Origin: Desulfovibrio sp. JY
GTDB taxonomy: Bacteria > Desulfobacterota > Desulfovibrionia > Desulfovibrionales > Desulfovibrionaceae
DNA: 64,000 nucleotides
Reading direction: 5' to 3'
Assembly (NCBI GenBank): GCA_021730285.1
Contig: CP082962.1
Location: 496,001-560,000, forward strand
This document shows, piece by piece, positions 8,912-50,245 of this stretch. Every line of letters begins with the position of its first letter. The stretch's first letter is position 1. The notes beneath the pieces were generated by a model. That model saw nothing but the letters and a program-made list of their open reading frames with translations. It was not told the origin of the DNA and searched no databases. A program made the translations under genes and the position numbers.

Positions 8912-9127
8912 TCGATCACTGGCAAGCTCTTTCGCGCCCAAGAGCATGCCAACCTCACCGTATCCCATGACCCGGTCCAGGAAATCGAGGGCATCGACTT
9001 CGACCGGCCCTAGGCCAAGACAGTCGCCAAGTTCATCACCGCGCTGACGAAGTACGCCGGCACCGAGAAGACCATGACCTTCGCCTCGAAGACCGCCTTC
9101 AAGCGGTTCATCAGGGACCATGCCTAA
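8912..9127 (+). pseudogene. Broken second copy of the small island gene found at 45337-45687
   Basis: These bases match the last two thirds of the gene at 45337-45687 nearly base for base, including the shared run of residues GKLFRAQEH and the end FIRDHA before the stop. The 5' third is missing and an in-frame TAG interrupts it at 9011-9013. The sequence after the stop and the terminator are also conserved in both places, so the duplication covers about 290 bases. I read it as the remnant of the right end of an older, related island. Confidence 0.85.
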
Positions 9128-9176
9128 GTCACCGAATGAGAACAACTTTGACGCACTGAGAGCGTATTAGACACGA

Positions 9177-9205
9177 GGGGGGCCGAAAGGCCTCCCCATT
9201 TTTTT
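9177..9205 (+). terminator. Rho-independent terminator (copy 1)
   Basis: GGGGGGCC, a GAAA loop, GGCCTCCCC, then a short spacer and a run of seven T. It is the counterpart of the terminator at 45734-45762 after the intact gene copy. Confidence 0.8.
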
Positions 9206-9440
9206 GCCGGACCACCAGTCAGGCTAAGTGAGACCCAGGACTTTCCCCTATCTACCGAGTTTTCACGAAAAACAGGTTAAGACTTCGTCTAGTGTGAGAA
9301 ATACTCAACTAGACAACGTAGTGTTTCCATTGTTATAGCAAAGAGGAGCTGAGCTTCCACTATCTTTTTAGCACATAAAGAGAAAAGCCATGCCGAAGCT
9401 TTAGCACGATCCTAAACAAACTTATTTAATTTCATCTTTA

Positions 9441-10244
9441 TTACAAAATAGTTTTCAACTCTGGAGCATCCGAAAACAACTTGACAAGATCTTGTTCAAC
9501 ATCATGACAACGCAAAATCATTCTCCAAACAGTTCTATGCGGCAAAGATAATATATCGGATTTCAGCACCTCGAACAGAGCATCATTCACAACTTCCCCT
9601 CTATTGCTAACATAATTAACCAACCTCGAAACAAAGCCTCGATACGAAACAACACGCGCTTTTTTAAGAATATCTCTATTCAGCTTCAATAGATCACGAG
9701 TATATGACGCTTTCTTAGAGCGACGAGGATCTGTTGACAACACAGTGAAAGCGCCAGTGCTAAAATCAAGATCAAAAAACTCCAAGGGATCCTCAACCCT
9801 AGGGTTAATAAAGGCTGCCTCTCCCGACACAGGAGGGACAACTGGCGCATTGCGCGGCCGAGTTACATCAACAACGTCGCCGCTATCATCTATTATAGCA
9901 AAAAAATCGCGCTTATAGGCACTATTACAAGTGCTACATGCATATAAATAGTTTTCCCATCGAAATGTTTTTTCGGGATATAAATCTTTTGGATAAACAT
10001 GCTCAACATCTGTAGCGAGTGAGTCTTCACAATAATGACAACGACCCAACCCAGAACAACTTTCTTTTAAGCTACATCGAATCTCTTTGTCTGCTCCAAA
10101 AAAAATCTGACTTTTCGAACTCCATTGGTTTTTTGCAGTTTCAACTCGATCTAAATAGTCAGGATGGGCATCTATGACACCTTGTGATTTATCAAGATAT
10201 TCTTGGACTGCGACAGACAATTGTTTTAGAGACACAAAGAGCAT
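9441..10244 (-). CDS. ptuB: HNH endonuclease, Septu PtuB-like
   Basis: 267 residues from the ATG at 10244, which follows the upstream ATPase stop by four bases and has GAGG upstream; a longer start at 10283 would overlap that gene. The HNH fold is visible as CHYC (residues 69-72), a catalytic-type His in DVEHVYPKD (about 82), and CSTCN (103-107). The two Cys pairs should bind structural zinc. Together with the overlapping AAA ATPase this matches the two-gene Septu anti-phage system, in which PtuA senses nucleotides or infection and PtuB cleaves nucleic acid. The gene is AT-rich compared with the core. Other ATPase/HNH pairs (for example retron effectors) look alike, but no reverse transcriptase is nearby. 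Confidence 0.72.
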   Translation of the reverse strand: MLFVSLKQLSVAVQEYLDKSQGVIDAHPDYLDRVETAKNQWSSKSQIFFGADKEIRCSLKESCSGLGRCHYCEDSLATDVEHVYPKDLYPEKTFRWENYLYACSTCNSAYKRDFFAIIDDSGDVVDVTRPRNAPVVPPVSGEAAFINPRVEDPLEFFDLDFSTGAFTVLSTDPRRSKKASYTRDLLKLNRDILKKARVVSYRGFVSRLVNYVSNRGEVVNDALFEVLKSDILSLPHRTVWRMILRCHDVEQDLVKLFSDAPELKTIL

Positions 10245-10248
10245 CTCA

Positions 10249-11499
10249 TTATTCCTCTGTTGGGAAAATAGCCTGGAGTTCACTCCGTCGCTTTTTCTCT
10301 TCTCGTGTCAAGATCGCACGACGTGCACGCACATTCAACTCAGCCAATTCATTCAGAAGAGATTCAGCTCGATCAGAACGTTCAATCCCATCACCAAAAA
10401 CTCCAGAACTATACGCTTCCAACACATTACCATAAATTAACTTCTTCAATCTCTCCCCAGAAACCATGCCGCTCCTATCTTCACGACCAGGACGCGAAAG
10501 TTGAAAAACAGACCCATTAATTGCATTTTGACAGACAAGCGGGCTGTGCGTTGTAACCATAAATTGAACTCTAGGAAAATGCTTACACAACCATTGCCCA
10601 ACACTTCTTTGCCAACGTGGGTGCAAATGCGCATCTATTTCATCAACTAACACAACTCCCGGATAAACTATCTTGCTTCCATCATCGCTGAAAATACTAC
10701 TTGTGTTATACGCAACTGTCATTTGACGGATAAGTTCAATCATCAAGCTCAGAATTGACCTATGGCCATCACTCGCATCTTCAATATCAATGACAGATCC
10801 TTGTGCATCTTTAAAAACAACTCCCTTTGATGTGACCTGGTCAACAAATGCTCCGTTAGGCAAAAAGTTGTCATCATTAATAAACTTTATCACTTGATCT
10901 AAAAGACGCCCTTCTTTGCAACCAAAGTCTTCCAACTGTTTAAACCTCAAATCCTTTAGCCACTCGAGAGTCTCAGTAAGAGCCACAGCTTCGTTAAAAG
11001 CTGACAGATGACGTGCAACATCAGGATAAGAATAAAACAACTTGCTATACGTTTGATCGCCACCCGTGAATCTACGAAAAGGACCGAAGGACGACGAAAA
11101 CCAACCTGTCCCTCGCCCCCATAACGTACGTTCTGAGTAGTTAGCCCTTCCTTTTTTAACAGATCCATCAGAGGAAATAATAACTTCTACACTTAAAGCT
11201 GAAGCACTCGTCCTTCCAGTGTCTGACCATCGATCAAATAGACTATCATGTTCGACACGAGCAACAATTCTTCCTTCGCAAGAACCCTGCTTAACCCATT
11301 TTGTAAAATCAGATTGTGTACGAGGAGCCAGCTCAGGACCCATCAACAACAATGAAATAGCCTTAATAAAAGTCGACTTTCCTGCACCGTTATCGCCAAG
11401 AATCACATGCCATCCATGAGCATCAGCATCTTGCTTAATATCCCAAACTACGGAATCAAAGTTCTTTATATTTTCAATTTCAATCCTTCTGATATACAT
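10249..11499 (-). CDS. ptuA: AAA ATPase, Septu PtuA-like
   Basis: 416 residues from the ATG at 11499 with GGAGG five bases upstream. The N-terminus YIRRIEIENIKNF is the typical SMC/RecF-like first strand of this ATPase class. Walker A is GDNGAGKST (35-43), and Walker B with its neighbours is VLVDEIDAHLHPRW near residue 285, followed by the switch region FMVTTHSPLVC. It is the first gene of a two-gene operon with the HNH nuclease. In Septu, PtuA assembles into a multimer that holds PtuB and is controlled by ATP; that is known for the family, not shown here. The pair sits between the island terminator at 9205 and the attachment site at 12044. Confidence 0.72.
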   Translation of the reverse strand: MYIRRIEIENIKNFDSVVWDIKQDADAHGWHVILGDNGAGKSTFIKAISLLLMGPELAPRTQSDFTKWVKQGSCEGRIVARVEHDSLFDRWSDTGRTSASALSVEVIISSDGSVKKGRANYSERTLWGRGTGWFSSSFGPFRRFTGGDQTYSKLFYSYPDVARHLSAFNEAVALTETLEWLKDLRFKQLEDFGCKEGRLLDQVIKFINDDNFLPNGAFVDQVTSKGVVFKDAQGSVIDIEDASDGHRSILSLMIELIRQMTVAYNTSSIFSDDGSKIVYPGVVLVDEIDAHLHPRWQRSVGQWLCKHFPRVQFMVTTHSPLVCQNAINGSVFQLSRPGREDRSGMVSGERLKKLIYGNVLEAYSSGVFGDGIERSDRAESLLNELAELNVRARRAILTREEKKRRSELQAIFPTEE

Positions 11500-11907
11500 A
11501 AAACCTCCTGGACATGTAAAAAAACACCGCATGGCTGATTCGATTCCTAATCCAATCCACAGGAGTTCACAAACTATTTTACAAAAAGAATTTATCTTAC
11601 CAATTCACGCTAAGCGTTCAAATATATTGCCACCATTTTCCGAAAAATGTCTACACAATAAACTGGAAAACAGCATTATTCACCAAGACTATATCTACGC
11701 TTAGCGAACACAAGAGATATACAATTCTTCAAAAAACTTAGGTCTAGCCAACCTACTTTGGCCCAGCACAAGATTTGAAAATTATTGTGGTTTTTATGCG
11801 TAACCTCATTGAGTAACGACATGTTGCCTTCTAACAAATCGTTAACATTACGAGATTTCAGAACAACACCTCTATCCCTGCAGCCCCTTAAATATCCAAG
11901 TGAATCT
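11500..11907. other. AT-rich gene-free stretch upstream of the Septu pair
   Basis: Contains the promoter region of the ATPase/HNH operon on its left. An 83-codon minus-strand frame at 11676-11927 has no ribosome site and no recognisable family, so I do not call it. The right end runs into the hairpin of the attachment-site repeat. Confidence 0.45.
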
Positions 11908-12088
11908 AACCGACCCCCTGACCTCAAAGCAAGGGGTCGCCCTGGATAACCATTCCTCTGGAATCCCAGGCCGATAGGTTATCCAGCCGGTTATCCAACG
12001 AGAAAAGGGGCTAGGTCGACTAGACCTAACCCCTTGAAATAACTGGTCGGGATGAGAGGATTTGAACCTCCGACCCCCTGAACCCCAT
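11908..12088. repeat. Attachment-site repeat 1: hairpin plus tRNA-Pro 3' end (att1)
   Basis: Starts with a hairpin (GACCCCCTG arm, then AAGGGGTC) and continues with about 100 bases nearly identical to 50085-50200. It ends in 45 bases at 12044-12088 identical to the 3' half of tRNA-Pro at 50201-50245, from the CCA end to the anticodon arm. The rest of the tRNA is absent, so this is an integration scar rather than a tRNA gene. Tyrosine integrases commonly use exactly this tRNA half as the attachment core. Confidence 0.85.
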
Positions 12089-12592
12089 GGGCCGGGTACC
12101 TGCCATTCTAGTTGAAATCATTAGATATTTTTTTGGAAATGATAACATTTTTCCGACATACCCTGCCTGGCGACGAAGGCAAACGGTTCTCCAGATGTTA
12201 TCCAGATTGCAGCGTTATCCACGGGGAAAATTCTGAAAAAATAGTTCGCAGGACCTCCACAAACTTATCAGTATTGAACTCCAAGAGCATCATTACTGAT
12301 ATTGCGGAGTAACATTCCATATCCGTTTTGACGGAAGCTCATCCTTCAAGTCTCCATCAAGTTTTTCGTACGTCGAGAATAACTGCTCAAGTAATTCCTT
12401 CTGCGACCTAAGCCTTACTCGGAAATAACTTGCGGCTAGTTCCTTTTGTACATTTGATTTGAAACCTCCCCAAGAGACGATGAGTCCTCGGCGGCTCCGG
12501 ACTTGGTGACGTCTCCCAACAACTTGTCGACGGCCGGACGGTCGGTGGGCGTCGAACCCGACTTCACCTCGACACAAAGCCGATTGGGTCAC
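12053..12592. repeat. Long imperfect direct repeat, copy 1 (partner 20895-21426)
   Basis: Begins inside the tRNA-derived core and continues through CATGGGCCGGG, an AT-rich spacer with GATAACATTTTTCCGACATA, and the 3' third of an Mrr-like gene. It is roughly 85-90 percent alike to 20895-21426 by eye. Both copies start at an attachment core, so they look like left ends of related islands. Confidence 0.8.
12293..12592 (-). pseudogene. 3' fragment of Mrr-like endonuclease gene
   Basis: The last roughly 75 codons match the C-terminus of the intact protein at 21133-22170 (VSWGGFK, then NVQKELAAS, ending TPQ plus two residues). Upstream of about 12478 the similarity continues in another frame, so there is at least one frameshift. 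It stops at about 12592, before the catalytic Glu-x-Lys. It cannot encode a working nuclease. Confidence 0.8.
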
Positions 12593-12607
12593 ATTTGCTC
12601 TTGAGCT

Positions 12608-12623
12608 GTAAATAAAAATTTAC
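12608..12623 (+). promoter_or_regulatory. Palindrome upstream of the kdp operon, possible operator
   Basis: Perfect inverted repeat GTAAAT-AAAA-ATTTAC about 85 bases before the first kdp-region start codon. It sits where a KdpE operator or promoter element would be expected, and KdpE is encoded in the same operon. The link to KdpE is inference from position and AT-rich symmetry only. Confidence 0.35.
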
Positions 12624-12706
12624 GCGCCCTTCCAGTTGTTTTACGCCTCTTATACATGCCCAGGACTATAGCCAAGCCATCGACAGCCACGTCTAGGAGG
12701 TTTTCG

Positions 12707-12796
12707 ATGGATACGCTTTTCATCGTCCTTATGTTGGTCCTGATCATTGTCCTACTTGGCCTGATCGAATTCCTCGAATGGCTGGAGAGGAAGTAA
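12707..12796 (+). CDS. 29-residue single-span membrane microprotein ahead of kdpF
   Basis: The ATG at 12707 has a perfect AGGAGG six bases upstream. The product begins MDTLFIVLMLVLIIVLLGL and ends in a charged EWLERK tail: one hydrophobic helix with a cytosol-type C-terminus. It ends two bases before the kdpF start. It is not KdpF itself, which follows and has its usual form. I do not recognise the family. Size, position and topology suggest an accessory subunit or regulator of the Kdp pump. Confidence 0.65.
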   Translation: MDTLFIVLMLVLIIVLLGLIEFLEWLERK

Positions 12797-12798
12797 AC

Positions 12799-12882
12799 AT
12801 GGATATCATCGTCTTGGCCATTGCAGCCGTTTTGTTCGTCTATCTCCTTGCCGCCCTCTGCAAACCGGAGTGGTTTGAATGA
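12799..12882 (+). CDS. kdpF: KdpF small subunit of potassium-transporting ATPase
   Basis: 27 residues, one membrane span followed by the characteristic KPEWF end. Its stop overlaps the kdpA start in ATGA. KdpF stabilises the KdpABC complex in the inner membrane. Its length and C-terminal Lys-Pro-Glu motif fit the family well. Confidence 0.85.
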   Translation: MDIIVLAIAAVLFVYLLAALCKPEWFE

Positions 12883-14627
12883 ACCAGAACAACTTCCTGC
12901 AACTCTTGTTTTTCCTAAGCGTACTACTTGTGTTGTCCTGGCCGCTGGGGCTCTACGCCGCTCGAGTCTACCAGGGGCGGCCTTGTGGCCTGGACACGAT
13001 ACTTGGGCCGTTTGAGCGCCTGCTCTATCGCATCGGCGGCGTCGATGCCTCTCGGGAAATGGACTGGAAGACCTATGCTCTGGCCATGCTCGGCATAAAC
13101 GCCCTGGGCATGCTCTGCGTCTACGCCCTGGAACGGCTCCAAGGAGGGCTCCCGCTCAATCCTCTACGCCTTCCCGGGGTGGACCCGTTCGTGGCCGTCA
13201 ACACGGCCGTAAGCTTCGCCACCAATACCAACTGGCAGGCCTACGCCGGCGAGTCCACCATGAGCATCCTCACCCAGATGCTGGGGCTCGCCGTCCAGAA
13301 CTTCCTCTCCGCCGCCACCGGCATGGCTGTGGCCATAGCCCTCATCCGAGGACTTGCCCGTCGGGAGACGGCCCACTTGGGGAACTTCTGGCAGGACCTC
13401 ACGCGATCCGTCCTGTACATCCTGCTGCCGCTCTCTTTCGTACTGGCTCTTCTCCTAATCTGGCAGGGTGTGCCCCAAACATTCACGGGGCAGGTCGAAG
13501 CCGCCTGGCTCGATCCCACCCCCCATGTCGCCTCGTCCACGTCGCCGGACACGACGTCGGCTGACCAGCCCCCGACCAAACAGACCATCGTCCTTGGCCC
13601 CGTGGCCTCGCAGGTGGCCATCAAGCAGCTCGGTACCAACGGCGGCGGCTACTTCAACGTCAATTCCGCCCATCCCTTCGAAAATCCGACGCCCCTGACC
13701 AATCTTCTGGAAATGCTGGCCATCCTGCTCATCCCGGCAGCGCTGTGCCACACTTTTGGTGCCATGATCGGCGACAGGAGGCAGGGCTTGGCCATCCTGG
13801 CGGCCATGACCATTCTCTTCGCCGGGTTTGCCGCGCTGACACTGGCCGCCGAGTCGGTTCCCAATCCGGCTCTGGCCGGTATCGGCGTACCAGCCGTTCC
13901 TAGCTTGGAAGGCAAGGAAGTCCGCTTCGGCGCGGCCGGATCAGCCTTGTGGGCCGCAGCCACCACCGCCGCCTCCAATGGCTCGGTCAATGCCATGCAC
14001 GATAGTTTCTCGCCCCTTGGCGGCATGTGGCCGATGCTGCTCATGCAGCTTGGCGAGGTGGTGTACGGCGGCGTGGGATCGGGGCTTTACGGCATGCTGG
14101 TCTTCGCCGTGGTCACGGTTTTCGTGGCCGGCCTCATGGTCGGACGCACGCCGGAATACTGCGGCAAGAAAATCGAACCATTCGAAACGAAGATGGCCGC
14201 GCTCGTCATCCTGATTCCGCCGTTTCTTTGCCTGGCGGGGACGGCGCTGGCCGCCGTGATCGGACCGGCCGACGCCGTGTCCAACCCGGGACCGCACGGC
14301 TTTTCCCAGATGCTCTACGCCTTTTCCTCCATGGGCAACAACAATGGCAGCGCGTTTGCCGGACTGACTTCCACCTCACCCTTCTGGACCATTGCCGGAG
14401 TCGTGGCCATGTTCGTATCCCGCTACTGGCTGATCGTCCCGGTCCTGGCCCTGGCGGGATCGCTTGCCGGGAAAAAGCGCCTGGCCCAAGGCCCCGGCAC
14501 CCTGCCGACCCACGGGGGCATTTTCGTCGCTCTGCTCATGGTCGTGGTCCTGGTGGTTGGGGCGCTTACCTTTGTGCCCGCCCTGGCGCTGGGTCCCGTG
14601 GCCGAACAGCTCGCCCTTTTCCAGTAG
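12879..14627 (+). CDS. kdpA: KdpA potassium-binding channel subunit
   Basis: 582 residues, a polytopic inner-membrane protein of normal family length. Selectivity-filter-type segments are visible in [29 protein letters not shown] and [11 protein letters not shown]. KdpA takes up K+ from the periplasm and passes it to KdpB through an intersubunit tunnel. It starts inside the kdpF stop and is followed after ten bases by kdpB, consistent with one transcript. The GC-rich codon use resembles the core genome more than the AT-rich island genes around it. Confidence 0.97.
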
Positions 14628-14637
14628 AGGTTTCGCC

Positions 14638-16707
14638 ATGACCAAGCATACCAAACGTCCGCTTTTTGATCCCGCCATTGTTCGCCAGGCCGGCCTCGAC
14701 TGCCTGCGCAAGCTGTCTCCGGCCCGGCAGGCGCGCAACCCCGTCATGTTCACGGTCTATGTCGGCAGCATCCTGACCACGATCCTGGCCGTCCAAGCGG
14801 CACTTGGCCACGGTGAGGCCACGGTCGGCTTCGTGGCCGGCATCGCCGCCTGGCTGTGGGCCACCGTGCTCTTCGCCAACTTCGCCGAAGCCATGGCCGA
14901 GGGTCGGGGAAAGGCCCAAGCCGCCGCCTTGCGCGGACTGCGCCGGGACGTAACCGCCAAAAAGCTCGCATCACCACAGCGCGACGCTGCCGTGGCCGAA
15001 GTCCCGGCCAGTTCTCTGCACCGAGGGGACGTATTTCTCGTCGAAGCCGGCGACACCATTCCCTCCGACGGCGAGATCGTGGAGGGGATCGCCTCGGTGG
15101 ACGAGTCCGCCATCACCGGCGAATCCGCCCCGGTCATCCGCGAGGCTGGCGGCGACCGCAGCGCCGTTACCGGCGGCACGCGCCTGCTTTCGGACTGGTT
15201 GATAGTCAAGGTGGCGGCCGACGCCGGCGAGACCTTCCTCGACCGCATGATTTCCCTGGTGGAGGGCGCAAAGCGCCGCAAGACCCCAAACGAGATCGCG
15301 CTGAACATCCTGCTCGCCTCCTTGACGCTGATCTTCCTCGTGGTCTGCGTGACGCTACGCCCCATGTCGGCCTACGCCGTGGCTGCCGCCGGGCAGGGGC
15401 AGGCCGTGACCATCACCGCCCTGGCCGCATTGTTTGTGTGCCTGGCTCCGACCACCATCGGCGGCCTTCTTTCGGCAATCGGCATCGCCGGCATGGACCG
15501 GCTCATCCAGGCCGGGGTCATCGCCACCTCGGGGAGGGCCGTGGAGGCTGCTGGCGACGTGGACGTGTTGCTGCTCGACAAGACCGGCACCATTACCCTG
15601 GGCAACCGCCAGGCAACCGCCTTCCTGGCGGCCAAAGGCATAGACGAACGCCAATTGGCGGAAGTGGCCCAACTTGCCTCCCTGGCCGACGAGACGCCGG
15701 AGGGTCGGTCCATCGTGGTGCTAGCCAAGGAGCGCTTCGGCATTCGCGGCCATGACCTGGAAGCCCTGGGCGCGACCTTCGTACCGTTTACAGCCCAAAC
15801 GCGTCTGTCCGGCGTCGATCTGTTGGGACGCAGCATCCGCAAGGGCGCGGCCGACGCGGTGAAGGCCCTGGCCGAAGCTGCGGGCAACCGGATACCCGAA
15901 GAAGTTGAGCGCGCCATTCACGAAGTAGCCAAATCCGGCGGCACGCCGCTGGTGGTGGCTGAAAACGGCAAGCCGCTTGGCGTCGTTTGGCTGAAAGACA
16001 TCGTCAAGGGCGGCATCCACGAACGCTTCGCCGAGCTTCGGGCCATGGGCATCAAGACCATCATGGTCACCGGCGACAACCCGCTCACCGCCGCGGCCAT
16101 CGCAGCCGAGGCGGGGGTGGACGACTTCCTGGCCGAAGCCACGCCCGAGGCCAAGCTCGCCCGTATCCGCCAGTACCAGGCCGAGGGCAAGATGGTGGCC
16201 ATGACCGGCGACGGCACCAACGACGCCCCGGCCCTGGCCCAGGCCGATGTGGGCGTAGCCATGAATTCCGGCACCCAGGCCGCCAAGGAAGCGGGCAACA
16301 TGGTGGACCTCGACTCCAACCCCACAAAACTTCTGGAGGTCGTGGCCATCGGCAAGCAGCTGCTCATGACGCGCGGGTCGCTGACCACCTTTTCCATCGC
16401 CAACGATATCGCCAAGTACTTCGCCATCATCCCGGCCGTGTTCATCGGCATCTACCCGCAGCTCGCCCTGCTCAATGTCATGGGGCTGGCCACGCCGAAA
16501 TCCGCCGTGCTCGCGGCCGTCATCTTCAACGCCCTCATCATCGTCTTTCTCATCCCCCTGGCGCTTAAGGGGGTCAAATACGTGCCGGCCCCGGCCGTGG
16601 TCGCCTTGCGGCGAAACCTCCTTGTCTACGGCCTGGGCGGACTGGTCGTGCCGTTTGTCGGCATCAAGTGCATCGACATGCTTATCGCCGCCCTGGGCTG
16701 GGCTTAA
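14638..16707 (+). CDS. kdpB: KdpB P-type ATPase subunit
   Basis: 689 residues from the ATG at 14638 (AGAGG upstream). It contains the actuator motif TGES, the phosphorylation loop DKTGTIT with catalytic Asp at about residue 314, the nucleotide-binding region, and the hinge [16 protein letters not shown]. KdpB hydrolyses ATP to drive K+ transport with KdpA and KdpC. All catalytic residues of the P-type ATPase cycle are present, so it is expected to be active. Confidence 0.97.
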
Positions 16708-16719
16708 AAGGAGCCTCCT

Positions 16720-17307
16720 ATGTTCGTTGAACTCGGAAAACAGTTGAAGACATCCTGCCTGATGTTTCTGTGGCTAAGCGTTTTGACAGGGCTGCTCTAT
16801 CCCTTGGCCGTCACGGCACTCGGCACGGGACTTTTCCCGAAACAAGCCATGGGGTCCCTGATCAAACGGCAGGATGCCGTCATGGGTTGCGCCCTGCTCG
16901 GACAACCCTTCACGTCCGACCGCTATTTCCACGGACGCCCCTCGGCCACGTCGCCCCATCCCTACAATGCCGCCGCCTCGTCGGGCTCCAACCTGGCCCA
17001 GACCAATCCGGCCCTGCGGCAGGCCGTCAGGGAACAAGCCGCCATGCAGGCAAGGGACAACCCCGACGCGCCGGTCCCCATGGACCTGGTCACGACCTCG
17101 GCAAGTGGGCTTGATCCCGACATCAGTCCGGAAGCCGCCTCCTACCAGATTACACGGGTGGCCAAGGCGCGAGACCTGCCCAGGCAGACCGTCGCCGATC
17201 TGGTCGCCCGGCACACCGAAGGCCGTCTCTTTGGATTTTGGGGGGAACCGCGCGTCAACGTGCTGCGCCTCAATTTGGCGCTGGATGCCCTGAGCCCCGC
17301 GCAGTAG
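16720..17307 (+). CDS. kdpC: KdpC subunit of potassium-transporting ATPase
   Basis: 195 residues with one N-terminal membrane span (GLLYPLAVTALGTGLFP) and a periplasmic domain holding SGSNLAQTNPAL, typical of KdpC. It sits 12 bases after kdpB and ten before kdpD. KdpC assists high-affinity K+ binding in the complex. Confidence 0.95.
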   Translation: MFVELGKQLKTSCLMFLWLSVLTGLLYPLAVTALGTGLFPKQAMGSLIKRQDAVMGCALLGQPFTSDRYFHGRPSATSPHPYNAAASSGSNLAQTNPALRQAVREQAAMQARDNPDAPVPMDLVTTSASGLDPDISPEAASYQITRVAKARDLPRQTVADLVARHTEGRLFGFWGEPRVNVLRLNLALDALSPAQ

Positions 17308-17316
17308 GAAGGAATC

Positions 17317-20668: not shown

Positions 20669-20812
20669 CGAAGACCATTTGGGATTCTGCTTGCTGTGGC
20701 CTCGCAGAACTACTGACCTGCCCGGGCCTTTTCGGACCATCTGAAACTTTAGAAGGTCGTTCTCGACGATGAAGAGGGGAGAGACCCAACGGTTGACCAC
20801 CGACATTTGTGG

Positions 20813-27251: not shown

Positions 27252-27254
27252 TCG

Positions 27255-37820: not shown

Positions 37821-37850
37821 ACAGCAGACGCCGAGAAAAGTAACTGACTG

Positions 37851-37899: not shown

Positions 37900-37918
37900 A
37901 AAGGCAAGGAAGATAGAC

Positions 37919-38347: not shown

Positions 38348-38407
38348 GCACCATCCTGGCCTCGCAGAGATGGGCAAACAATAAAAGCTCCAACAACGTG
38401 ACCCACT

Positions 38408-38457
38408 AAGAACGAATGAGAAAGACGGGAGGGCTGAAAAGCCCTCCCCAAATAAAA
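38408..38457 (+). repeat. Repeated intergenic hairpin, copy 2
   Basis: Almost identical to 37851-37899, including AAGAACGAATGAGAAAGACG and the stem GGGAGGGCT/AGCCCTCCC. It ends about 11 bases before the next start codon, close enough for the stem to affect ribosome access. Confidence 0.85.
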
Positions 38458-38467
38458 GAGAACACAA

Positions 38468-42871: not shown

Positions 42872-42888
42872 TACGTTTGGACTCTAAC

Positions 42889-42980: not shown

Positions 42981-43010
42981 AATGTACGTTTTGTAGGAGA
43001 AACGTACATT
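42981..43010. promoter_or_regulatory. 11-8-11 inverted repeat upstream of the minimal recombinase
   Basis: AATGTACGTTT, spacer TGTAGGAG, AAACGTACATT: perfect arms. It lies right before the GGAGG and ATG of a leader frame. The size fits either an operator or a tyrosine-recombinase core site with an eight-base crossover region. Confidence 0.6.
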
Positions 43011-43022
43011 GGAGGCATTTAC

Positions 43023-43094
43023 ATGGACTTCTGCAAGAAATCGAAGGTGTTATCTCCAGGGGCTTTGGAGCTCAAGGGGACAGGACCAATTTAA
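43023..43094 (+). CDS. Putative 23-residue leader peptide
   Basis: ATG at 43023 preceded by GGAGG with seven-base spacing. The product is MDFCKKSKVLSPG followed by ten more residues, and its stop lies 50 bases before the recombinase start. It may couple or attenuate translation of the recombinase. Coding support rests on the ribosome site alone. Confidence 0.35.
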   Translation: MDFCKKSKVLSPGALELKGTGPI

Positions 43095-43143
43095 ATGCAC
43101 GTTTCCGACATGGTCGGAAGAAAAACAAGCATTGGAGGTAACG

Positions 43144-43701
43144 ATGAAGGTCGAACCCATTATTGACGTGAAGAGCATCAAGAGCATCAAGAAGATACTT
43201 TCTGACAATCTTCGCGATAAACTGCTCTTCATCATGGGCATCAATTCTGGACTTCGTGTCCAAGACTTGCTTGCCCTCAAGGTCGGCGATGTTCGGGAAG
43301 CCAAGGTCGGTGACCGGGTGATCTTGCGTGAAAAGAAAACCGGCAAGGAGAACGTGTTCATTATGAACAAGGAGATCAAGCTGGCGCTTGACGACTACCT
43401 CACCGAGTTCGGATCGGGGGACGACCATTTTCTGTTCAAGAGTCGTAAAGGACGCAACTATCCTCTTACGACCTTTGCCGTCACCAAGTACGTCAAACGT
43501 TGGGCCGAAGCTGTGAACCTTAAGGGGAACTACGGTGCCCACACGTTACGAAAAACTTGGTGCTATCACCAGCGCAAGACCTTCGGCGTCTCCTGGGAGG
43601 TCCTGGCCAAGCGGCTGAACCATTCCAGCCCGTCGATCACGCGCCGGTATCTCGGCATCCAGGAAGAGGAAGTGGAGGAGATACTGCTCCACGTCATCTG
43701 A
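43144..43701 (+). CDS. Minimal tyrosine recombinase (catalytic domain only)
   Basis: 185 residues from the ATG at 43144 with GGAGG upstream. The catalytic set is visible: Arg in NSGLRVQDLLAL, Lys in EKKTGKE, HTLRKTW (His and second Arg), LNHSSPSITRRYLG (third His and the Tyr nucleophile). The usual N-terminal core-binding domain is absent, so it is about half the length of a normal integrase, like some small integron- or plasmid-type resolvases. It may act at the inverted repeat at 42981. It is separate from the full integrase at 44163. Confidence 0.82.
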   Translation: MKVEPIIDVKSIKSIKKILSDNLRDKLLFIMGINSGLRVQDLLALKVGDVREAKVGDRVILREKKTGKENVFIMNKEIKLALDDYLTEFGSGDDHFLFKSRKGRNYPLTTFAVTKYVKRWAEAVNLKGNYGAHTLRKTWCYHQRKTFGVSWEVLAKRLNHSSPSITRRYLGIQEEEVEEILLHVI

Positions 43702-43934
43702 ACCCTTACCGACGGGGCCGCCCCCGTCTTTTTTTGGTGGCACGGAAAATATTTTTTTGCCCATCAGCGCCGGTTATGTCGAAAGATTGTGTTTTGCCTG
43801 AGTAAGGAAATCTCATTGCCCTGTAGAAGCCCTCATCGCCCTATGCATCCGATTTTACGCGACATCCATTTGATTTCACGGTTTTTTTTCGTTTATACCG
43901 GGGCCGATTCCATCGACGAAAGAGGCACCCCAGC
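43702..43934. other. Gap between the two recombinase loci
   Basis: Contains GGAAAATATTTTTTTGCCC (about 43746) and CCTGTAGAAGCCCTCAT, which recall AAATATTTTTTT and CCTGTAGAAGACCTCAT near 37010 and 37079. A shared control or ancestral duplicate end is possible. No gene. Confidence 0.45.
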
Positions 43935-44162
43935 ATGAGCGAGAGCATCGGTCCGTTTTTCAACTGCAAGGAGGCCGCTGAGTTTTGCGGCTACTCCCAC
44001 TCCTACTTCGAGAAAATGGTCAACCGCTTCAAAATCAAGCGGTACGGCCCCAGCAAAAACCGGTTCGCCCGCGCCGACCTTGAGGCGTTCATGGCGAGCC
44101 CTGAACGGTACGCCACCGGGGCCGCGCAGAAGACCCGCCGCCCCATCACCCTGGAGGTATAA
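43935..44162 (+). CDS. Excisionase-like helix-turn-helix protein
   Basis: 75 residues. NCKEAAEFCGYSHSYFEKM followed by RYGPSKNRFARADLEAFM is the winged MerR/Xis-type helix-turn-helix used by excisionases (AlpA, HTH_17). Its stop abuts the integrase start codon with no gap, so both are co-translated. It likely sets the direction of recombination at the tRNA-Pro site. Confidence 0.8.
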   Translation: MSESIGPFFNCKEAAEFCGYSHSYFEKMVNRFKIKRYGPSKNRFARADLEAFMASPERYATGAAQKTRRPITLEV

Positions 44163-45260
44163 ATGTCTGTCCACAAGCGCGCCAACAACGACACCTACTA
44201 CGTGTCCTACCGGGATGCCGAGGGCCGGCAGCGCACCAAGACCTTCGGCAAAGGCCGTGAGGGCAAGCGTGACGCCCAGCGGTTCGACGAGGAGATCAAG
44301 GCCCGCAAGCTCATCGAGGCCCCACTGCCCATCTTCGCCCCGGGCCAAAAGGCCTACATCGACCAGCTGACGCAGCTCTACATCAACGCCAAAAAGGCCG
44401 AGGGCAAGTCGCTGCGGTGGATCAGGGAGCTGGCCGTGCTGGTGAAGACCCATTTCATCCCGGTGTTCGCCCAGCGCCCTGTCGACGAAATCCGTTTCGA
44501 GGAGATCGTCGAGATCATCGGCAAGGCCTACGCCGACCGCAGCCAGACGACCCGGTCGCGCTACCTGTCCTATCTGAAGATGGTCTTCCAGTACGGCGTC
44601 GACTACGAGCTGACCACCAAGAACCCGCTGAAACGCTGGAAGAAGCCGAAGGAGCGGCCCCGGGACACGAAGCTCACCTACCCAGACCTCATGAAGCTCA
44701 AGGAAGCGGCACGGCCCCATCTCGCCTGGGCCATCGAGGTCGCCTGGAACCTTGGCGTGCGCACCGGCGAGTCCGAATTGCTGGCCCTGACCTGGAACGA
44801 CATCGACTGGGACGACAGCAGCATCAAGGTCTACGCCACCAAGACGAAGACCAACCGCGTCATCCCGATTGCGCCGGAATTTCTGGAGCGCCTCAAGGCC
44901 ATGCGGCAGAAGGCCCAGACCGGCTACGTCGTCGAGTACCAGGGCAAGCCGCTGCGCAAATTTCGCCGGTCCCTGAAGACGGCGGCGGAAAAGGCCGGCC
45001 TGACCTACCCCGTGGTCATGTACGACATCCGGCACCTGTTCGCCACGACGCTCCTGCGCGAAGGCGGCGACGTTGCGGCCGTGAGCAAGCTCATGGGCCA
45101 CGCCAGCGTCAAGATGACAGTCGACCAGTACTACCACCTGCTCGGCGGCGAAAAACGGCGCACCATCGCCAAGCTGCCGAGCCTGAGCAAGCCCGAGGAC
45201 GCCCCTTGCCCTGAAGCGGCTTCCTCTGCACCTCAACCCCCGACCTTTGCCCCGGCATAG
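44163..45260 (+). CDS. int: Tyrosine integrase of the tRNA-Pro island
   Basis: 365 residues, full length. It has an N-terminal arm-type domain, a core-binding domain (about 65-155, IDQLTQLYINAKKAEGKSL), and a catalytic domain with Arg in LGVRTGESELLAL, Lys in TKTKTNR, YDIRHLFATT (box II, Tyr where His is usual), LMGHAS, and the nucleophile in VDQYYHLL. It is the best candidate for insertion into tRNA-Pro, whose 3' half is duplicated at 12044. It is cotranscribed with the excisionase-like gene. Confidence 0.9.
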   Translation: MSVHKRANNDTYYVSYRDAEGRQRTKTFGKGREGKRDAQRFDEEIKARKLIEAPLPIFAPGQKAYIDQLTQLYINAKKAEGKSLRWIRELAVLVKTHFIPVFAQRPVDEIRFEEIVEIIGKAYADRSQTTRSRYLSYLKMVFQYGVDYELTTKNPLKRWKKPKERPRDTKLTYPDLMKLKEAARPHLAWAIEVAWNLGVRTGESELLALTWNDIDWDDSSIKVYATKTKTNRVIPIAPEFLERLKAMRQKAQTGYVVEYQGKPLRKFRRSLKTAAEKAGLTYPVVMYDIRHLFATTLLREGGDVAAVSKLMGHASVKMTVDQYYHLLGGEKRRTIAKLPSLSKPEDAPCPEAASSAPQPPTFAPA

Positions 45261-45336
45261 CCGGGATCGAGCGATACGACGGCCCTGGCCCATGACAACG
45301 CCACAGCCCAACCCCAAACGCTTCGGAGAACGAACG

Positions 45337-45687
45337 ATGAATACTTTCTGGGTATTTGCGCACATCGACGGCGACGGCATCAAGCACTACCGGCAGTTCG
45401 AGAGCCCGGCTGGCCCCTACTACGCCACTGCGCGGCAGGCTGGCGGCACCAAAGCCGTTGGCGGCAAGGGCACGATTACCGGCAAGCTCTTTCGCGCCCA
45501 AGAGCATGACGACCTCACCGTCTCCCATGAGCTGGTCCGGGAAATCGCGGGCATCGACTTCGACCGGCTCCGTGAAAAGACGGCCGCCAAGTTCATCACC
45601 GCGCTGACGAAGTACGCTGGCACCGAGAAGACCATGACCTTCGCCTCGAAGACCACCTTCGAGCGGTTCATCAGGGACCATGCCTAA
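45337..45687 (+). CDS. 116-residue hypothetical island protein (intact copy)
   Basis: ATG at 45337 with GGAG upstream. It opens NTFWVFAHIDGDGIKHYRQF and ends TFERFIRDHA. No family recognised. It follows the integrase and ends in a terminator. A 5'-truncated, stop-containing copy lies at 8912-9127 with the same downstream sequence, so this gene marks the inner edge of the island right end. Confidence 0.75.
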   Translation: MNTFWVFAHIDGDGIKHYRQFESPAGPYYATARQAGGTKAVGGKGTITGKLFRAQEHDDLTVSHELVREIAGIDFDRLREKTAAKFITALTKYAGTEKTMTFASKTTFERFIRDHA

Positions 45688-45733
45688 CTCACCGAATGAA
45701 AACTACTTTGACGCACTGAGAGCGTATTAGACA

Positions 45734-45762
45734 CGGGGGGGCCGAAGGGCCTCCCCATTTTT
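45734..45762 (+). terminator. Rho-independent terminator (copy 2)
   Basis: GGGGGGGCC-GAA-GGGCCTCCCC stem and a T-run. The 30 bases before it (ACTTTGACGCACTGAGAGCG onwards) are conserved at 9145-9175. It separates the integrase-side transcript from the cargo beyond. Confidence 0.85.
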
Positions 45763-45898
45763 GTTTTGAAAAGAACTTCCGGCCAGTATTACCTTCTGCT
45801 TGACGACAAGAACGGGGATGCAATCGAAAAGGTGCCCACTCTTGGCAAGTACAAAAATATTTTATACTTTACAATAATTCATTTTATTTACGTAAATT

Positions 45899-48800
45899 CT
45901 ATTCTGATCCATATCTACGGATATATTCCGCCAGACGTTGAAATCGAGTATCTTGCCTAGCTTCTGGCCAAGCTTTTGCTACTGCCGCAAGACAATTACT
46001 TAATTCCTGAGATGGCCATGGTTGATTTGCAATGATTGCTGTTAAAAGTTCCAAAGAATCTTGCGGAAACTTGTCACAGTGGCTTGATTCTTGTAATAGA
46101 CTTACTACATAATGAGGATATTCAATAGGCACTAACCAATCACGCAGAGTTCCTAGTGCCCTTGGAAACATATCGCCAGAAGCGATGACTAGTTGGACAA
46201 GGACTTCTGCTAATACAGGAGATATTTTTTCATGCGATTTTGGCCAAAGCATCTGCCAAAATAGTTGAATACGATTTACAAAATGCATCTCTCTTTGGTT
46301 ACCAGCACCATTAAGTGAATATAGAAGCGCACGGGCAGACTCCACCAAACCTTCCTGTGGCAACGAACAAATGGCCCCATGGAGTTCTTTTAATGAAAAA
46401 GTGTCCGTTTGACCTAATGCAGCATAGGTAATTATGGCAGCATACTGCCTACCATAATCACCGAGATCAGTGTAGTGCTGGGCTGTTTCGATAAAATTAT
46501 ATTTTATCTCTGCAAATAATGGCCAATACAGGCGTGGCGACCAGAGATATCCTTTCCATGCAGATTGAGCTTCACGCTGAGAAACGTTCCAATCAAACAA
46601 AGGTAAAATATTTTTTATCGTCCATTGTGAGTCTACGCGGAAAAATGTAATAACACGAGCAGCTAACAACAACCTAGCATGGCGATAGATATAGACGTCA
46701 ACATCACAAAGCTTCGTAAAAATAGAAACTAAGTCGGCGGGCAAGCCTTGTTGATCTTGAGGCTTACGCTGTAACCAGAGATTCAGAAGAGCTTTCGTAA
46801 TATGTCCTACCGGATGATTGATAGAGTCCGACACAACATCTTCAGTATCACTATCATACAGACTTGGCATATCCAAAAAACGGAGGCATATTTCGAGAAA
46901 AATATCTTCATAAGAGTCGAGAACATTTGATACATTTTCTAGCCAACAAGACGCAGCATGCGCAATTTTTAGCAAGACTGCATCAGGCATTTGCTTCAAC
47001 AATAGCGCAACATGCTTCCAAGAGAAACATATTAATTTTCCATCGTCCCATGCTTGCAGCGCCTCACGCCATCGATCGCTGGGCCATCGCTGCTCATGTG
47101 CGAGAACACAAAGACCATAAATAGCCGTAGGACATTTCTTTTGGCAATACTCCCTCCAGTCGTCTTCGTGTAAGGGACCTTGGAAGGGGGGACGTCGCAG
47201 CCAGTCCACTAGCTCGTTCCGTTGACGTGGTACTCGTTCGACTACTCTTCGCTCTTCATAGTCTGGATCACCAGTACCGCTTATCCAGAATGGAAATTCA
47301 TCACTCTCGTTGATTGCGAGCTCCCATTTGGGATTGTTAATTTTAAGTCTTGCTATTTGTAATGCTGCTTCTTTACCTAACATAACACCACTAGACGACA
47401 GTTTTGCTAAACGCAACCATATCGAATGGTCCACATTCCATTGCCAATCTTCTGGTGTTATCTCATCTCTATACATCATTCGTGGCGGCCCAGCAAGTAT
47501 CCCTAGCTCCAATCGCTCTCGGACAACATCCGTAAGTCGTATTCCTTGCAACACAAGCAAACGCAAAACTTCGCGTTTTGTCTCTACCGACCAAAGCCAC
47601 CACCCCTCGTCAGCCAGCAACCAATCAACCCATCCAATATGTGACGATATGTCTCCTTGCGACGCCGCGAACAACGCCAGCCTTTTGAAAACTGGATACG
47701 GCTGAAGCCACCACTCACTAGCGACGTGTATCGCTTGGGATAAATTTTGCTCACGCAATACAAGCCAAGCATCGCGCAACAACTCGACAAGCGCAACCCA
47801 ATCGCGATGCCTACCATTCTGACTATGCGGGCTCACAGATGGAAGATCTAAATACGATCTATCAAACATAGAATCTGCGTCACCCAACTCATGAAGTATA
47901 TCTAATGCATCGCGTAATAGTTGCTCAAATTCATTCAGTAGCAACGGCAAACTATCTTTCCATTTACCACATTCAACCTTTTCACATAAAGTTAAGTAGA
48001 CATGATCACTGGCCAAAACCAACTCCCAAGTCAGCTGGCGCTTAAAGTCGTTAGCGCTATTATTATCTTCTATATCTTCGCTCCACACAAAGGGTTTCTT
48101 CAGGGATATACATGGAGAAAGTAGTTTACGTAACTCTAATCGAAGCGTTGGTGTTAACCCATCGCAATTGAATCGCTTTTTCCACAGATACAAGTCAGTA
48201 CGATTCCATGGGGACTTTATACGTCCGGCAAGTAACAAATTCCAAATTGACCGCATTATTGGCCGTGGAATCGCATCCGGTGCGTTAATTCTAATATTTT
48301 GCAACTCGTCAATCTTGTCATTATGCTCTAGAGATGAAATATCATTCAACCTATTGACCACTAAATAAATAAAATCCTCATGCAATTTACCACCGTTGCT
48401 CGCTAACCACAGAACTAGCTTTGGATTATCAAGATGACGAATTAACCAATGCGCAATATGATGCATAACTGCATCCCACTGGCTTCCCATTTTACTACAT
48501 TTTAATAGCATCATAAAAGGCGCAAGACTATATGGAGCTGGGCGTTGTGCAAAGCTAAAACACAGTGCACTATCTTCTGAAGACTGAGGCATTACACCAA
48601 AACGAGGCAGATCAAAGTGGCAATATCGATCCTCTATCAATGGTTTTAACCAGTCCAACGACGGCACAGGATTAAACGTAGCGAAATGTTTGGCGGGCAA
48701 GCCCGAACTGTCAGAGAGTGCCCAGAGCATTCGACCAACAAAATCATCCTGAGGTGTACTGGCCATAGGCCTGGTCAGTGCATATTCAGAGACAATTCGC

Positions 48801-49711
48801 TCGTTGCCGAGCACACCATCACGATAGGTACCAGCCCAAGCCTTGAGAGTTCGATGCAGAGCCGAATGGTCATTAGTGCCCGTAGGTACTTTATATAGTA
48901 TTGGCACCACCCCTTTGGCTTTCCATTCTATTTCTTTTTCTTTTTCTGCCCCAGAAGCAAAATCGCCTAGTGCGTAAGACCGGGACATGCTTTCGCCCAT
49001 CATCCGATCTGCCGCAAGCGCATCCATCATATAGCGCAACACCGGATCGTTAATACTATATCCAACAAAACACACAATATAATGACGAAATAACTCACTG
49101 ACAAAACGGGCTGCCCAGCGCTCTGTTAGATATGCTAGACCGAAGTCTCCGCTTGTAACAACAAGTCTATTAAGTGCATACTCGTCATTTGCTTCGGGTA
49201 GCAGTCCATGCAAGTACACCACACCATTCCAACGACTATTTTTAGGAATTGGCAAGAATGGTGCTGGATAAGCAGAAATACTGAGTTTATATTTTTTTCT
49301 AACTCGCTCAAATATTCTATCAAAATTCGTTGTAACCAATCTCGTTGCGCCTTTGCGATCATTCGACAACTGCAGCAGGGCACGGTGTGTTTCAGTAGCG
49401 ATTTTACGTCGAAAATTTGGTTTCAGCACGGAAAATATTGCTTTGCGAACTACAAGACGTTGTCCTGGGATACGATGCTCCAGTAAATCTAATGTAGTAT
49501 CAAATCTATTGTTTTCATAAGCTTCTTTTTCCCTATCATCGTCATACGGATTAGTCCCTAATTCATTATATATACTATCTACCAGACCTTTAAAGTCTGG
49601 CAAGCCTGCAGGATACGATATCCCTGCTCCGCAGAAGAATACCACTTTTCCCTCTTCTTGTGCTTGAAGCAGTACCTCAGGAATATCTGGTCCATCCTTG
49701 ACAAACTGCAT
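45899..49711 (-). CDS. SIR2-domain anti-phage protein (DSR-like)
   Basis: 1270 residues; ATG at 49711 with GAGG upstream. The N-terminal SIR2 domain has VVFFCGAGISYPAGLPDF (residues 23-40), TTNFD (127-131), catalytic-type His in YLHG (168-169) and VGYSINDPVL (216-225). The remaining roughly 950 residues are helical and Trp-rich with no named domain, as in long defence-associated sirtuins that deplete NAD+ after phage recognition. Length fits the DSR class. It is AT-rich, faces the integrase operon, and sits between terminator and attachment site. Exact subtype cannot be given without alignment. Confidence 0.8.
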   Translation of the reverse strand: MQFVKDGPDIPEVLLQAQEEGKVVFFCGAGISYPAGLPDFKGLVDSIYNELGTNPYDDDREKEAYENNRFDTTLDLLEHRIPGQRLVVRKAIFSVLKPNFRRKIATETHRALLQLSNDRKGATRLVTTNFDRIFERVRKKYKLSISAYPAPFLPIPKNSRWNGVVYLHGLLPEANDEYALNRLVVTSGDFGLAYLTERWAARFVSELFRHYIVCFVGYSINDPVLRYMMDALAADRMMGESMSRSYALGDFASGAEKEKEIEWKAKGVVPILYKVPTGTNDHSALHRTLKAWAGTYRDGVLGNERIVSEYALTRPMASTPQDDFVGRMLWALSDSSGLPAKHFATFNPVPSLDWLKPLIEDRYCHFDLPRFGVMPQSSEDSALCFSFAQRPAPYSLAPFMMLLKCSKMGSQWDAVMHHIAHWLIRHLDNPKLVLWLASNGGKLHEDFIYLVVNRLNDISSLEHNDKIDELQNIRINAPDAIPRPIMRSIWNLLLAGRIKSPWNRTDLYLWKKRFNCDGLTPTLRLELRKLLSPCISLKKPFVWSEDIEDNNSANDFKRQLTWELVLASDHVYLTLCEKVECGKWKDSLPLLLNEFEQLLRDALDILHELGDADSMFDRSYLDLPSVSPHSQNGRHRDWVALVELLRDAWLVLREQNLSQAIHVASEWWLQPYPVFKRLALFAASQGDISSHIGWVDWLLADEGWWLWSVETKREVLRLLVLQGIRLTDVVRERLELGILAGPPRMMYRDEITPEDWQWNVDHSIWLRLAKLSSSGVMLGKEAALQIARLKINNPKWELAINESDEFPFWISGTGDPDYEERRVVERVPRQRNELVDWLRRPPFQGPLHEDDWREYCQKKCPTAIYGLCVLAHEQRWPSDRWREALQAWDDGKLICFSWKHVALLLKQMPDAVLLKIAHAASCWLENVSNVLDSYEDIFLEICLRFLDMPSLYDSDTEDVVSDSINHPVGHITKALLNLWLQRKPQDQQGLPADLVSIFTKLCDVDVYIYRHARLLLAARVITFFRVDSQWTIKNILPLFDWNVSQREAQSAWKGYLWSPRLYWPLFAEIKYNFIETAQHYTDLGDYGRQYAAIITYAALGQTDTFSLKELHGAICSLPQEGLVESARALLYSLNGAGNQREMHFVNRIQLFWQMLWPKSHEKISPVLAEVLVQLVIASGDMFPRALGTLRDWLVPIEYPHYVVSLLQESSHCDKFPQDSLELLTAIIANQPWPSQELSNCLAAVAKAWPEARQDTRFQRLAEYIRRYGSE

Positions 49712-50068
49712 TTTAATACCTCGGCATTCTAAAGTAAAATATTAGTGCGCTATTTACTTATTCGTCCTGAATCCTATTCTAGTCCGTCTTAAGATGCCCG
49801 AAACAGTATTGCGATGTCGAGCGCTAAAGCTCATGTGACAATTTGAACAAATTTGCAAATTATGGTGACCACAATGGACGCGCAATAGTTAACTAGGGGA
49901 CTTCGCTGATGGCTCCTATCGGAGCGCATGTTGCCTTCAAAGGACGAGCCCCCCTGACCTCCCTAACGGCGAAGCTGCCTGCAGGACGACACCAAGATCA
50001 AATATTCCTGAAAAACAAGATAGATGCCAAGATCAAACGGGCGACCGGCGGGACAACGTGCGGTAGCC
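49712..50068. other. Promoter side of the SIR2 gene
   Basis: About 350 bases with no supported gene. The left end is AT-rich and should carry the SIR2 promoter. The right half changes to core-like GC. No hairpin or operator was recognised before 50069. Confidence 0.4.
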
Positions 50069-50245
50069 GACCCCCTGACTTTTAGGAATTGGGTCGCCCC
50101 GGATAACCATTCCCCTAGAATCCCAGGCCAATAGGTTATCCAGTCGGTTATCCAACGAGAAAAGGGCCTACGGTTATTCACCGTAAGCCCTTGAAATAAC
50201 TGGTCGGGATGAGAGGATTTGAACCTCCGACCCCCTGAACCCCAT
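50069..50245. repeat. Attachment-site repeat 3: hairpin plus tRNA-Pro 3' end (att3)
   Basis: Hairpin GACCCCCTGAC...TGGGTC, then GGATAACCATTCC and GGTTATCCA words shared with att1, then GAAATAAC and the tRNA-Pro 3' end at 50201. It is the outer boundary of the island array and adjoins the intact tRNA. Confidence 0.85.

Follow-up and report, generated by a model that had tools for sequence, protein, structure and literature searches.

How do two copies of the same pair of flanking sequences, lying close together in one bacterial chromosome, come to enclose genes that have nothing in common? The question is posed by a stretch of 64,000 nt from Desulfovibrio sp. JY (CP082962.1, positions 496,001-560,000 of the forward strand; the window in what follows), which holds stacked insertions at one tRNA-Pro(GGG) gene. 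An earlier note on this DNA had taken the repeated arrangement for a cargo-swap locus, a slot for defence genes between a conserved terminator and the attachment site of an integrative element. Comparison across 14 genomes of the genus Solidesulfovibrio shows that foreign or host genes do sit between the integrase operon and the right arm of the attachment site (attP), and that they differ from copy to copy. The slot is probably the right end of a family of integrative elements of ~28-29 kb residing in the 3′ half of tRNA-Pro(GGG), with contents changed by recombination, tandem insertion and decay.

A variable slot beside the attachment arm

The target gene, tRNA-Pro(GGG) (50201-50277, minus strand), is the only tRNA that ARAGORN detects in the window. 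The shared attachment (att) core corresponds to its 3′ half (50201-50245), further copies of which lie at 12044-12088 and 20895-20929. Identity between right ends stops at 50245, inside the anticodon loop, and the crossover probably takes place in or near this loop. The newest element extends from the core copy at 20895 to the tRNA, and shows the traits by which integrative elements are recognized: a tyrosine integrase, an intact tRNA at one end and a displaced 3′ tRNA fragment at the other. Its right end is composed, in this order, of the integrase operon, a small gene of 116 amino acids (aa) without family match (45337-45687, plus strand), an intrinsic terminator (45735-45763, plus strand; stem at 45735-45756 and T tail), a cargo gene, a 29-nt inverted repeat (50068-50096), the arm sites and the tRNA. 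The terminator, conserved in relatives, is the usual left limit of the slot, and the repeat is the outer limit of the conserved right arm. The cargo is Dsr1, a SIR2 defence protein of 1270 aa (45899-49711, minus strand; 44% GC) that scores 1851.9 bits with the NCBIfam model NF041818 (cut-off 1400).

The same order is found in what is left of an older element. A remnant of the small gene, devoid of its first ~45 codons and bearing an internal stop, is followed by the same terminator (8913-9205, plus strand), and the whole is 88% identical over 293 nt to 45473-45765. The older right arm (11907-12088, plus strand), with its inverted repeat (11911-11939), its sites at 11944, 11978 and 11990 and its att core (12044-12088), is 87% identical over 182 nt to 50064-50245. 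Between these flanks lie two adjacent genes of 40-42% GC on the minus strand, the Septu genes PtuB (9441-10283) and PtuA (10249-11532), recognized by PADLOC (2.2e-81 and 8.6e-145, respectively) and falling below the NCBIfam cut-offs for retron-Ec78 PtuA/PtuB. This remnant retains the right att only, and the Septu block would be the surviving end of an older element that was deleted from its left. The two flanks recurring in the same order, the broken small gene and the unrelated cargo had all been read correctly in the earlier note, which overstated the likeness of the flanks, described as nearly identical.

Defining a slot as a left-flank piece (the terminator, or part of the small gene or integrase) together with a right arm, we found ten of them in eight of the 14 genomes: two each in G000 and G007, and one each in G001, G003, G004, G005, G008 and G011. 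Right-arm matches as such occur in 13 of the 14 genomes (E<=1e-6), many of them mere tRNA or terminator pieces; 16 places in nine genomes cover at least 135 of the 182 right-arm bases, and the block of small gene and terminator is matched in six genomes. The terminator is kept in seven of the ten slots (that of G008 at 74% over 70 nt), which measure from 1.35 to 9.4 kb and range in G+C from 0.37 to 0.63. The flanks do occur together elsewhere, and they do not always hold the same genes: 41 of the 45 slot pairs have no homologous open reading frame (ORF; E<=1e-5), the other four being G003-G005, G004-G008, G007-G008 and G007-G011. Judged from these gene contents, the slot is genuine and highly variable, since 41 of 45 pairs lack a common gene.

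Apart from the slots with Dsr1 and Septu, one slot contains an RHS-repeat protein, another a protein of 1400 aa, and a third a PAS-GAF histidine kinase accompanied by a CoA-transferase, a GNAT protein and a chemoreceptor. In a further slot, a 1374-aa helix-turn-helix (HTH) protein, 73.5% identical to that of 1400 aa, is joined by an Mrr-like gene. The remaining four hold a flavodiiron-type protein and others; a GmrSD-HEPN pair (PADLOC NsnA, 1.2e-61); the histidine kinase (96%) and the GNAT protein once more, next to other small genes; and a 392-aa protein without match. The name of defence slot does not suit this mixture: clear defence genes are present in only three slots (Dsr1, Septu and GmrSD/HEPN) and the Mrr-like gene in a fourth, the remaining ones holding signalling, metabolic, RHS or unassigned genes. 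When all 29 slot ORFs of at least 100 aa were scanned against PADLOC, the matches outside those three slots were either weak or to receiver domains.

A further trait, a fixed left boundary, did not survive the comparison, as the left piece ends anywhere from codon ~346 of the integrase (G011) to the terminator. With regard to the tie to this integrase family, slots of ~2-3.3 kb also exist at three tRNA-Arg(TCT) ends, and none at five tRNA-Pro(TGG) ends, where the integrase adjoins the arms. Among more distant integrase relatives (L010-L031), a tRNA was seen in 4 of 22, at 107-536 bp from the integrase match, in flanks of up to 1.5 kb, which larger slots would escape. A right end without left flank also adjoins other genes in contig 13 of G003.

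Several cargo genes deserve a separate mention. An orphan right arm with a truncated tRNA half (G000:C1:688695-688862; L034 12696-12863), ~142 kb from the tRNA, adjoins a 489-aa AAA-TIR protein of 38% GC, a defence-like cargo. The 1374-1400-aa protein (L118 10686-14810; L114 7400-11602), found in slots of two species, matches Pfam only through an HTH at its N terminus, and is a candidate new defence gene. The only other Dsr1 of the 14 genomes (54%) lies in G009, at the end of a tRNA-Pro(TGG) element, beyond an integrase 3′ fragment, a terminator and an arm; further inside there are genes that resemble Avs2 and other defence genes. This element of ~13.5 kb (G009:C212, ~20.5-34.1 kb; L172/L174) looks like a small defence island, carrying Dsr1, a PDC-M68B-like gene, a partial viperin match and the Avs2-like gene between its left arm and the integrase fragment.

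How the contents of the slot may change

Elements that are closely similar in their integrase modules carry unrelated cargo. Those of G005 and G007 are 96% identical through the integrase (INT), beyond which only pieces of the small gene and terminator and the right arm are common, and those of G000 and G001 are 94% identical up to codon 26 of the small gene; as divergence starts at differing points, the left boundary is not a site. Integrase DNA is 92-96% identical within each of two lineages, A and B, and inside lineage A the two sides of the slot disagree. The informative sites of G001 favour G000 over G004 by 71 to 27 in XIS-INT (the integrase and the small HTH gene before it) and by 10 to 5 in the left arm, and G004 over G000 by 17 to 2 in the right arm (Fisher test against XIS-INT, 5e-7). 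Likewise, G005 has 91% identity to G000 in the small gene and terminator and 82% in INT (p 1e-5), which places this block of G005 nearer lineage A than its integrase. Scars, consisting of the 3′ end of INT, the small gene or the terminator, are seen at the left edge of cargo blocks or between them in G000, G003 (two), G004, G007 (two), G008 (74% match), G011 and contig 25 of G001, a pattern that would be expected if a working integrase is lost while the cargo stays.

These data are compatible with a simple scheme, in which the edges of the slot would be conserved because they are useful: the terminator would close the integrase operon, the inverted repeat and the GTTATCC sites would be attP DNA bound by the integrase, and the last hairpin would serve as the new terminator of the tRNA. 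No element function appears to need the stretch in between. Two routes of change, suggested by the scars and by the incongruent flanks, would operate on it. In one, related and often tandem elements would recombine across the 3′ end of the integrase or the small gene, to the left of the slot, and across the right arm, to its right. In the second, a new element would insert in tandem at the tRNA and the older one would then be deleted from its left, losing the integrase and leaving a product of scar, terminator, cargo and right arm. Of the cargo-swap locus, what stands is the joint occurrence of the flanks around differing genes; a dedicated swap mechanism found no evidence, and nothing suggests site-specific exchange at the repeat, whose spacer differs between elements.

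There are several points that weigh against this scheme. Over the final 400 nt of INT the G001 sites favour neither side (7:7 and 3:4), and the tests of incongruence were chosen after viewing the identity tables and rest on short right arms. Lineages A and B separate alike in INT and in both arms, which counts against a free mixing of ends, and the four slot pairs with common genes indicate that part of the cargo is passed on together with its element or is common to several elements. In addition, none of the three backbone proteins has a family match that would suggest a mode of transfer, and no event of excision, transfer or exchange was seen. The concordance of INT, left arm and right arm in splitting the two lineages, together with the 1374-1400-aa cargo protein (73.5%) shared by G003 and G005, would be accounted for if each element had arrived with its own cargo and without exchange, the shared flanks reflecting whole-element ancestry. 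We find this unlikely in view of the disagreement between XIS-INT and right arm within lineage A, of the G005 block that is closer to lineage A than its own integrase, and of the modules 94-96% identical with unrelated cargo.

A cassette system, in which the inverted repeat would be a recombination site where INT or the second recombinase of the element (INT2) inserts or swaps cargo, could explain why conservation begins at the outer edge of the repeat (query position 1-8) in 13 of the 16 longest right-arm matches, and why solo repeats without arm sites exist at the end of the kdp segment described below, in contig 13 of G003 (27012) and in G004 (20986). It could also give a meaning to the first 11 nt of the repeat, which in the window equal the tRNA core arm at 50228-50238 and which, among 15 tRNA-Pro(GGG) ends, match that arm at 11 of 11 positions in ten and at 10 of 11 in three. 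Strand exchange by tyrosine recombinases requires matching overlaps. The spacer between the repeat arms differs between elements, the aligned left flanks show no copy of the repeat at the slot edge, the left boundaries vary, and the left arm of the repeat is degraded (8 of 11) in the two remaining ends (G011 and G012c58), all of which makes such a cassette improbable. A dedicated defence hotspot of a phage satellite, like those of P4 or the phage-inducible chromosomal islands (PICI), would fit with the Dsr1, Septu and GmrSD/HEPN slots, with the AAA-TIR protein beside the right arm at ~688 kb of G000 and with the restriction genes (Mrr and type I) at the left end. Against it, eight of ten element proteins scanned have no PHROG match and the other two match only integrase or HTH/excisionase families, and six or seven of the ten slots, with all 29 ORFs scanned, are free of a defence call. 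Moreover, the relatives of INT in 897 phage records and among the 5000 plasmid records listed are all below 60% identity, and a phage or plasmid origin of the integrase was rejected on the same grounds. A satellite hotspot therefore seems to us very improbable. A scan of viral contigs gave one relative of 62% and another of 24%, no tRNA being present on the piece that carries the former. The most economical reading would be that nothing sets this integrative element apart except an interval next to the attP arm that tolerates genes supplied through recombination and tandem insertion.

The arms, the tRNA-matched repeat and the kdp segment

The right arm of the newest element (50064-50200, plus strand) holds the inverted repeat, GTTATCC-type sites at 50101 (inverted), 50135 and 50147, and a hairpin at 50162-50192 (minus strand) adjoining the tRNA. 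The left end (20895-21130) consists of the left att core (20895-20929) and an arm with sites at 21037 and 21054. All ten GTTATCC/GGATAAC heptamers of the window sit in element ends, three in each full right arm (n=2) and two in each left arm (n=2); the two direct sites change little or not at all among 13 right arms, and the inverted one varies. They are putative arm-type sites of the integrase. The hairpin, with a fold z of -4.82 on the tRNA strand and compensatory changes in five of nine predicted pairs, is most likely a tRNA terminator supplied by the element. The sequence CGACCCCCTG, with at most one mismatch, occurs 17 times in the window where 6.93 are expected, and none of 100 shuffles reached this number.

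The 29-nt repeat behaves differently. In a set of 13 right arms that does not include G012c58, the kdp end or any partial end, 93.6% of 78 cells are paired and none shows a two-sided change, so that the repeat behaves like a DNA site and not like an RNA stem. As an RNA terminator the repeat at 50068 was discarded, for it is absent from the terminator-like sites of 45200-50300 and gives fold z values of -1.36 and -0.68; the solo copy at the kdp end has a fold z of -1.16 and a T-run a few bases downstream, and may act as a terminator there. The likeness of the 11-nt arm to the tRNA was equalled by only 0 to 5 of 1000 shuffles in the 13 better tRNA-Pro(GGG) ends, and by 294 and 359 of 1000 in G011 and G012c58. 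The five tRNA-Pro(TGG) ends bear instead a copy of the tRNA-Pro(TGG) arm (10, 10, 10, 9 and 9 of 11; 2-24 of 1000 shuffles as high), both core arms containing CCTG, and in the three tRNA-Arg(TCT) ends the likeness is not above chance (8 of 11; 207-294 of 1000). All these ends are related by descent, so the counts are not independent. We take the repeat as a putative accessory site for the integrase, on the outer edge of attP. It would be a long shot to see in it a built-in docking site matched to the target, which copies the core arm of the tRNA, marks the cargo boundary and lets the integrase help to add, remove or fix cargo. Some tRNA-associated integrases are described as autoregulated, by binding to an att site that overlaps their own promoter (PMC2951348); unlike there, the repeat of the window element does not lie upstream of INT. 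The 11 nt of the core arm are also repeated in two elements that occupy the same tRNA and have distant integrases, of 26-30% identity (G008:C1:3649129, L102 59130; G011:C14:37219, L104 17220); in both, the copy lies upstream of the integrase at 174 bp from the core.

Between two att copies, to the left of the newest element, lies a segment (12089-20860, plus strand) with remnants of a left arm and of an Mrr gene, the kdp operon (12879-20668, the kdpE part up to 20668 being assigned by homology to other kdp loci) and a solo inverted repeat (20816-20844). The earlier note had kdp ending in the same hairpin and core: the repeat-plus-core at 20813 is real and gives a right-hand end shared with the two slots, and the left side has no small gene or terminator, only the left-arm and Mrr remnants, so that there is no clear third slot. 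With a core and a left-arm remnant on one side, a core on the other and no integrase, the anatomy is that of a cis-mobilizable element (CIME). The kdpA gene is single-copy in the genome of the window and present in 11 of the 14 genomes. No element arm was found in four of six kdp stretches, those of G001, G005, G010 and G012 (13.7-20 kb; that of G012 ends inside kdp), and in G010 and G012 the neighbour of kdp is a gene for tRNA-His or tRNA-Ser. The operon of G003 (L163 9369-9643; L164, G003:C10) lies between decayed arms of tRNA-Arg type, unlike the Pro-GGG ends of the window: on its left a right-arm piece (72% over 102 nt) and then a left-arm piece (85% over 60 nt), and on its right an arm piece of 87% over 46 nt. 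G004 has a left-arm piece on one side. The view of kdp as a plain host locus is weakened by the arms around it in G003 and by the arm piece in G004. The kdp genes are thus a widespread operon, found between element arms in the window strain and in G003, which was either carried by elements or surrounded by elements that landed there. A divergent kdp (66%) is also present in contig 25 of G001 (L168, ~13.4 kb; L111 10237-12903), and ~25-29 kb from it scars of the small gene and terminator precede a left-arm piece and an Mrr remnant, with no tRNA in the 20 kb examined of this contig.

The element and its place among known systems

From left to right, the newest element carries an Mrr-type endonuclease adjoining the left arm (21133-22170, minus strand; remnant copy around 12291-12592), which was considered as an integrase for its position by the left att and rejected, the integrase operon lying at the opposite end (43009-45260). 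Type I restriction-modification genes hsdS, hsdM and hsdR follow (23734-29705, minus strand). The left end is variable as well: Mrr and type I restriction-modification genes occupy it in G000, G001 and G003, other genes in G007, and a histidine kinase (KdpD-like by tblastn) with a regulator-like gene in G004 and G008. The backbone (33646-40546) is formed by proteins of 599 aa (33646-35445, plus strand), 334 aa (35921-36925, minus strand) and 692 aa (38468-40546, plus strand), with relatives in G001, G003 and G004, the 599- and 692-aa genes having no match in G007. None of the three has a family match in PHROG or NCBIfam, the 692-aa protein showing one sub-threshold Pfam AAA match and no hit in a search of solved structures. 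The 599- and 692-aa proteins are related to each other (25-29% identity over 280-468 residues), and are possibly replication or mobility proteins.

The integrase operon starts with INT2, a second tyrosine recombinase (43009-43701, plus strand) that precedes XIS-INT in full tRNA-Pro(GGG) modules. XIS (43935-44162, plus strand) is a small HTH protein with a weak excisionase-type match (Pfam HTH_17, 26.7 bits for a cut-off of 27; PHROG excisionase, 7e-4), and INT (44163-45260, plus strand) has 365 aa. In this family INT is usually followed by the small gene, and then by the terminator. The INT2-XIS-INT module is accompanied by both ends in G000, G001, G004 and G007, with 28.1-29.4 kb from left to right core. 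No isolated INT2 or XIS pieces were found in tRNA-Pro(GGG) regions at E<=1e-5, a threshold that short pieces would escape, except for a divergent INT2-INT pair without XIS match in G008. A Pfam scan of 20 window proteins, which took in part of the ORFs of the element, gave no match to a relaxase or to conjugation genes. To the right of the tRNA, outside the element, a pair of 68-nt inverted repeats, 96% complementary and 2.3 kb apart, occupies 52887-55329.

One likeness is to the composites of integrative and conjugative elements (ICE), integrative and mobilizable elements (IME) and CIME that grow by accretion and deletion (PMC7563491, PMC5704250), where a single site also bears tandem elements, the copies that decay lose the integrase and retain att ends and cargo, and recombination between tandem elements is a source of module exchange. 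Unlike them, no relaxase or conjugation gene was found among the proteins scanned here, and the remnants keep the 3′ end of the integrase or the terminator, the cargo and the right arm. The hotspot of P4-like satellites between psu and int (PMC9122126) is also a small (1-5 kb) interval of high turnover on the integrase side, with conserved bounds and room for defence genes, whereas the interval described here lies between the terminator of the integrase operon and the attP arm, reaches 9.4 kb, is found without phage genes and holds cargo mostly without defence call. The PHROG scan of ten element proteins does not point to such a hotspot, no search having been aimed at psu or cos. The integrase-only defence islands of E. 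coli (PMC10121019), where 18 of 41 hotspots are tRNA loci, have in common with our element an integrase, varied defence genes and no known mobility genes; the host and the integrase module are different, and the boundaries are mapped here to the att arms and the terminator. GInt, from the same source, combines three integrases with a small helix protein and was rejected, the module here having two tyrosine recombinases and one small HTH protein.

The islands of the Islander survey (PMC4383910), in which Desulfovibrio magneticus RS-1 is the genome with most islands (19), share the 3′ tDNA fragments and the tandem arrays, and differ in the cargo slot, not described in the part of that work at hand. 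An integron cassette array was also rejected, as INT reaches 74.7 bits for an integron-integrase cut-off of 265 and the repeat has 0 of 78 compensatory cells; the differing spacers and the lack of compensatory change in pairing do not favour an integron-like reading of the repeat. In the literature searched, which included few subscription journals, no description was found of this element family, of the position of its slot between terminator and attP, or of the tRNA-matched repeat.

For a little-studied anaerobe, these data show how an element inserted in a tRNA gene can accommodate replaceable genes, antiviral ones among them, in the interval from the integrase operon to the attachment arm. 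They also show how such genes can persist after the loss of their element, when a deletion from the left takes the integrase and spares the terminator, the cargo and the arm. The accessory repeat matched to the tRNA is a testable detail of attP architecture, and a search for the flanks, terminator plus arm, is a handle to list the cargo of this family, including defence candidates such as the 1374-1400-aa HTH protein and the AAA-TIR protein.

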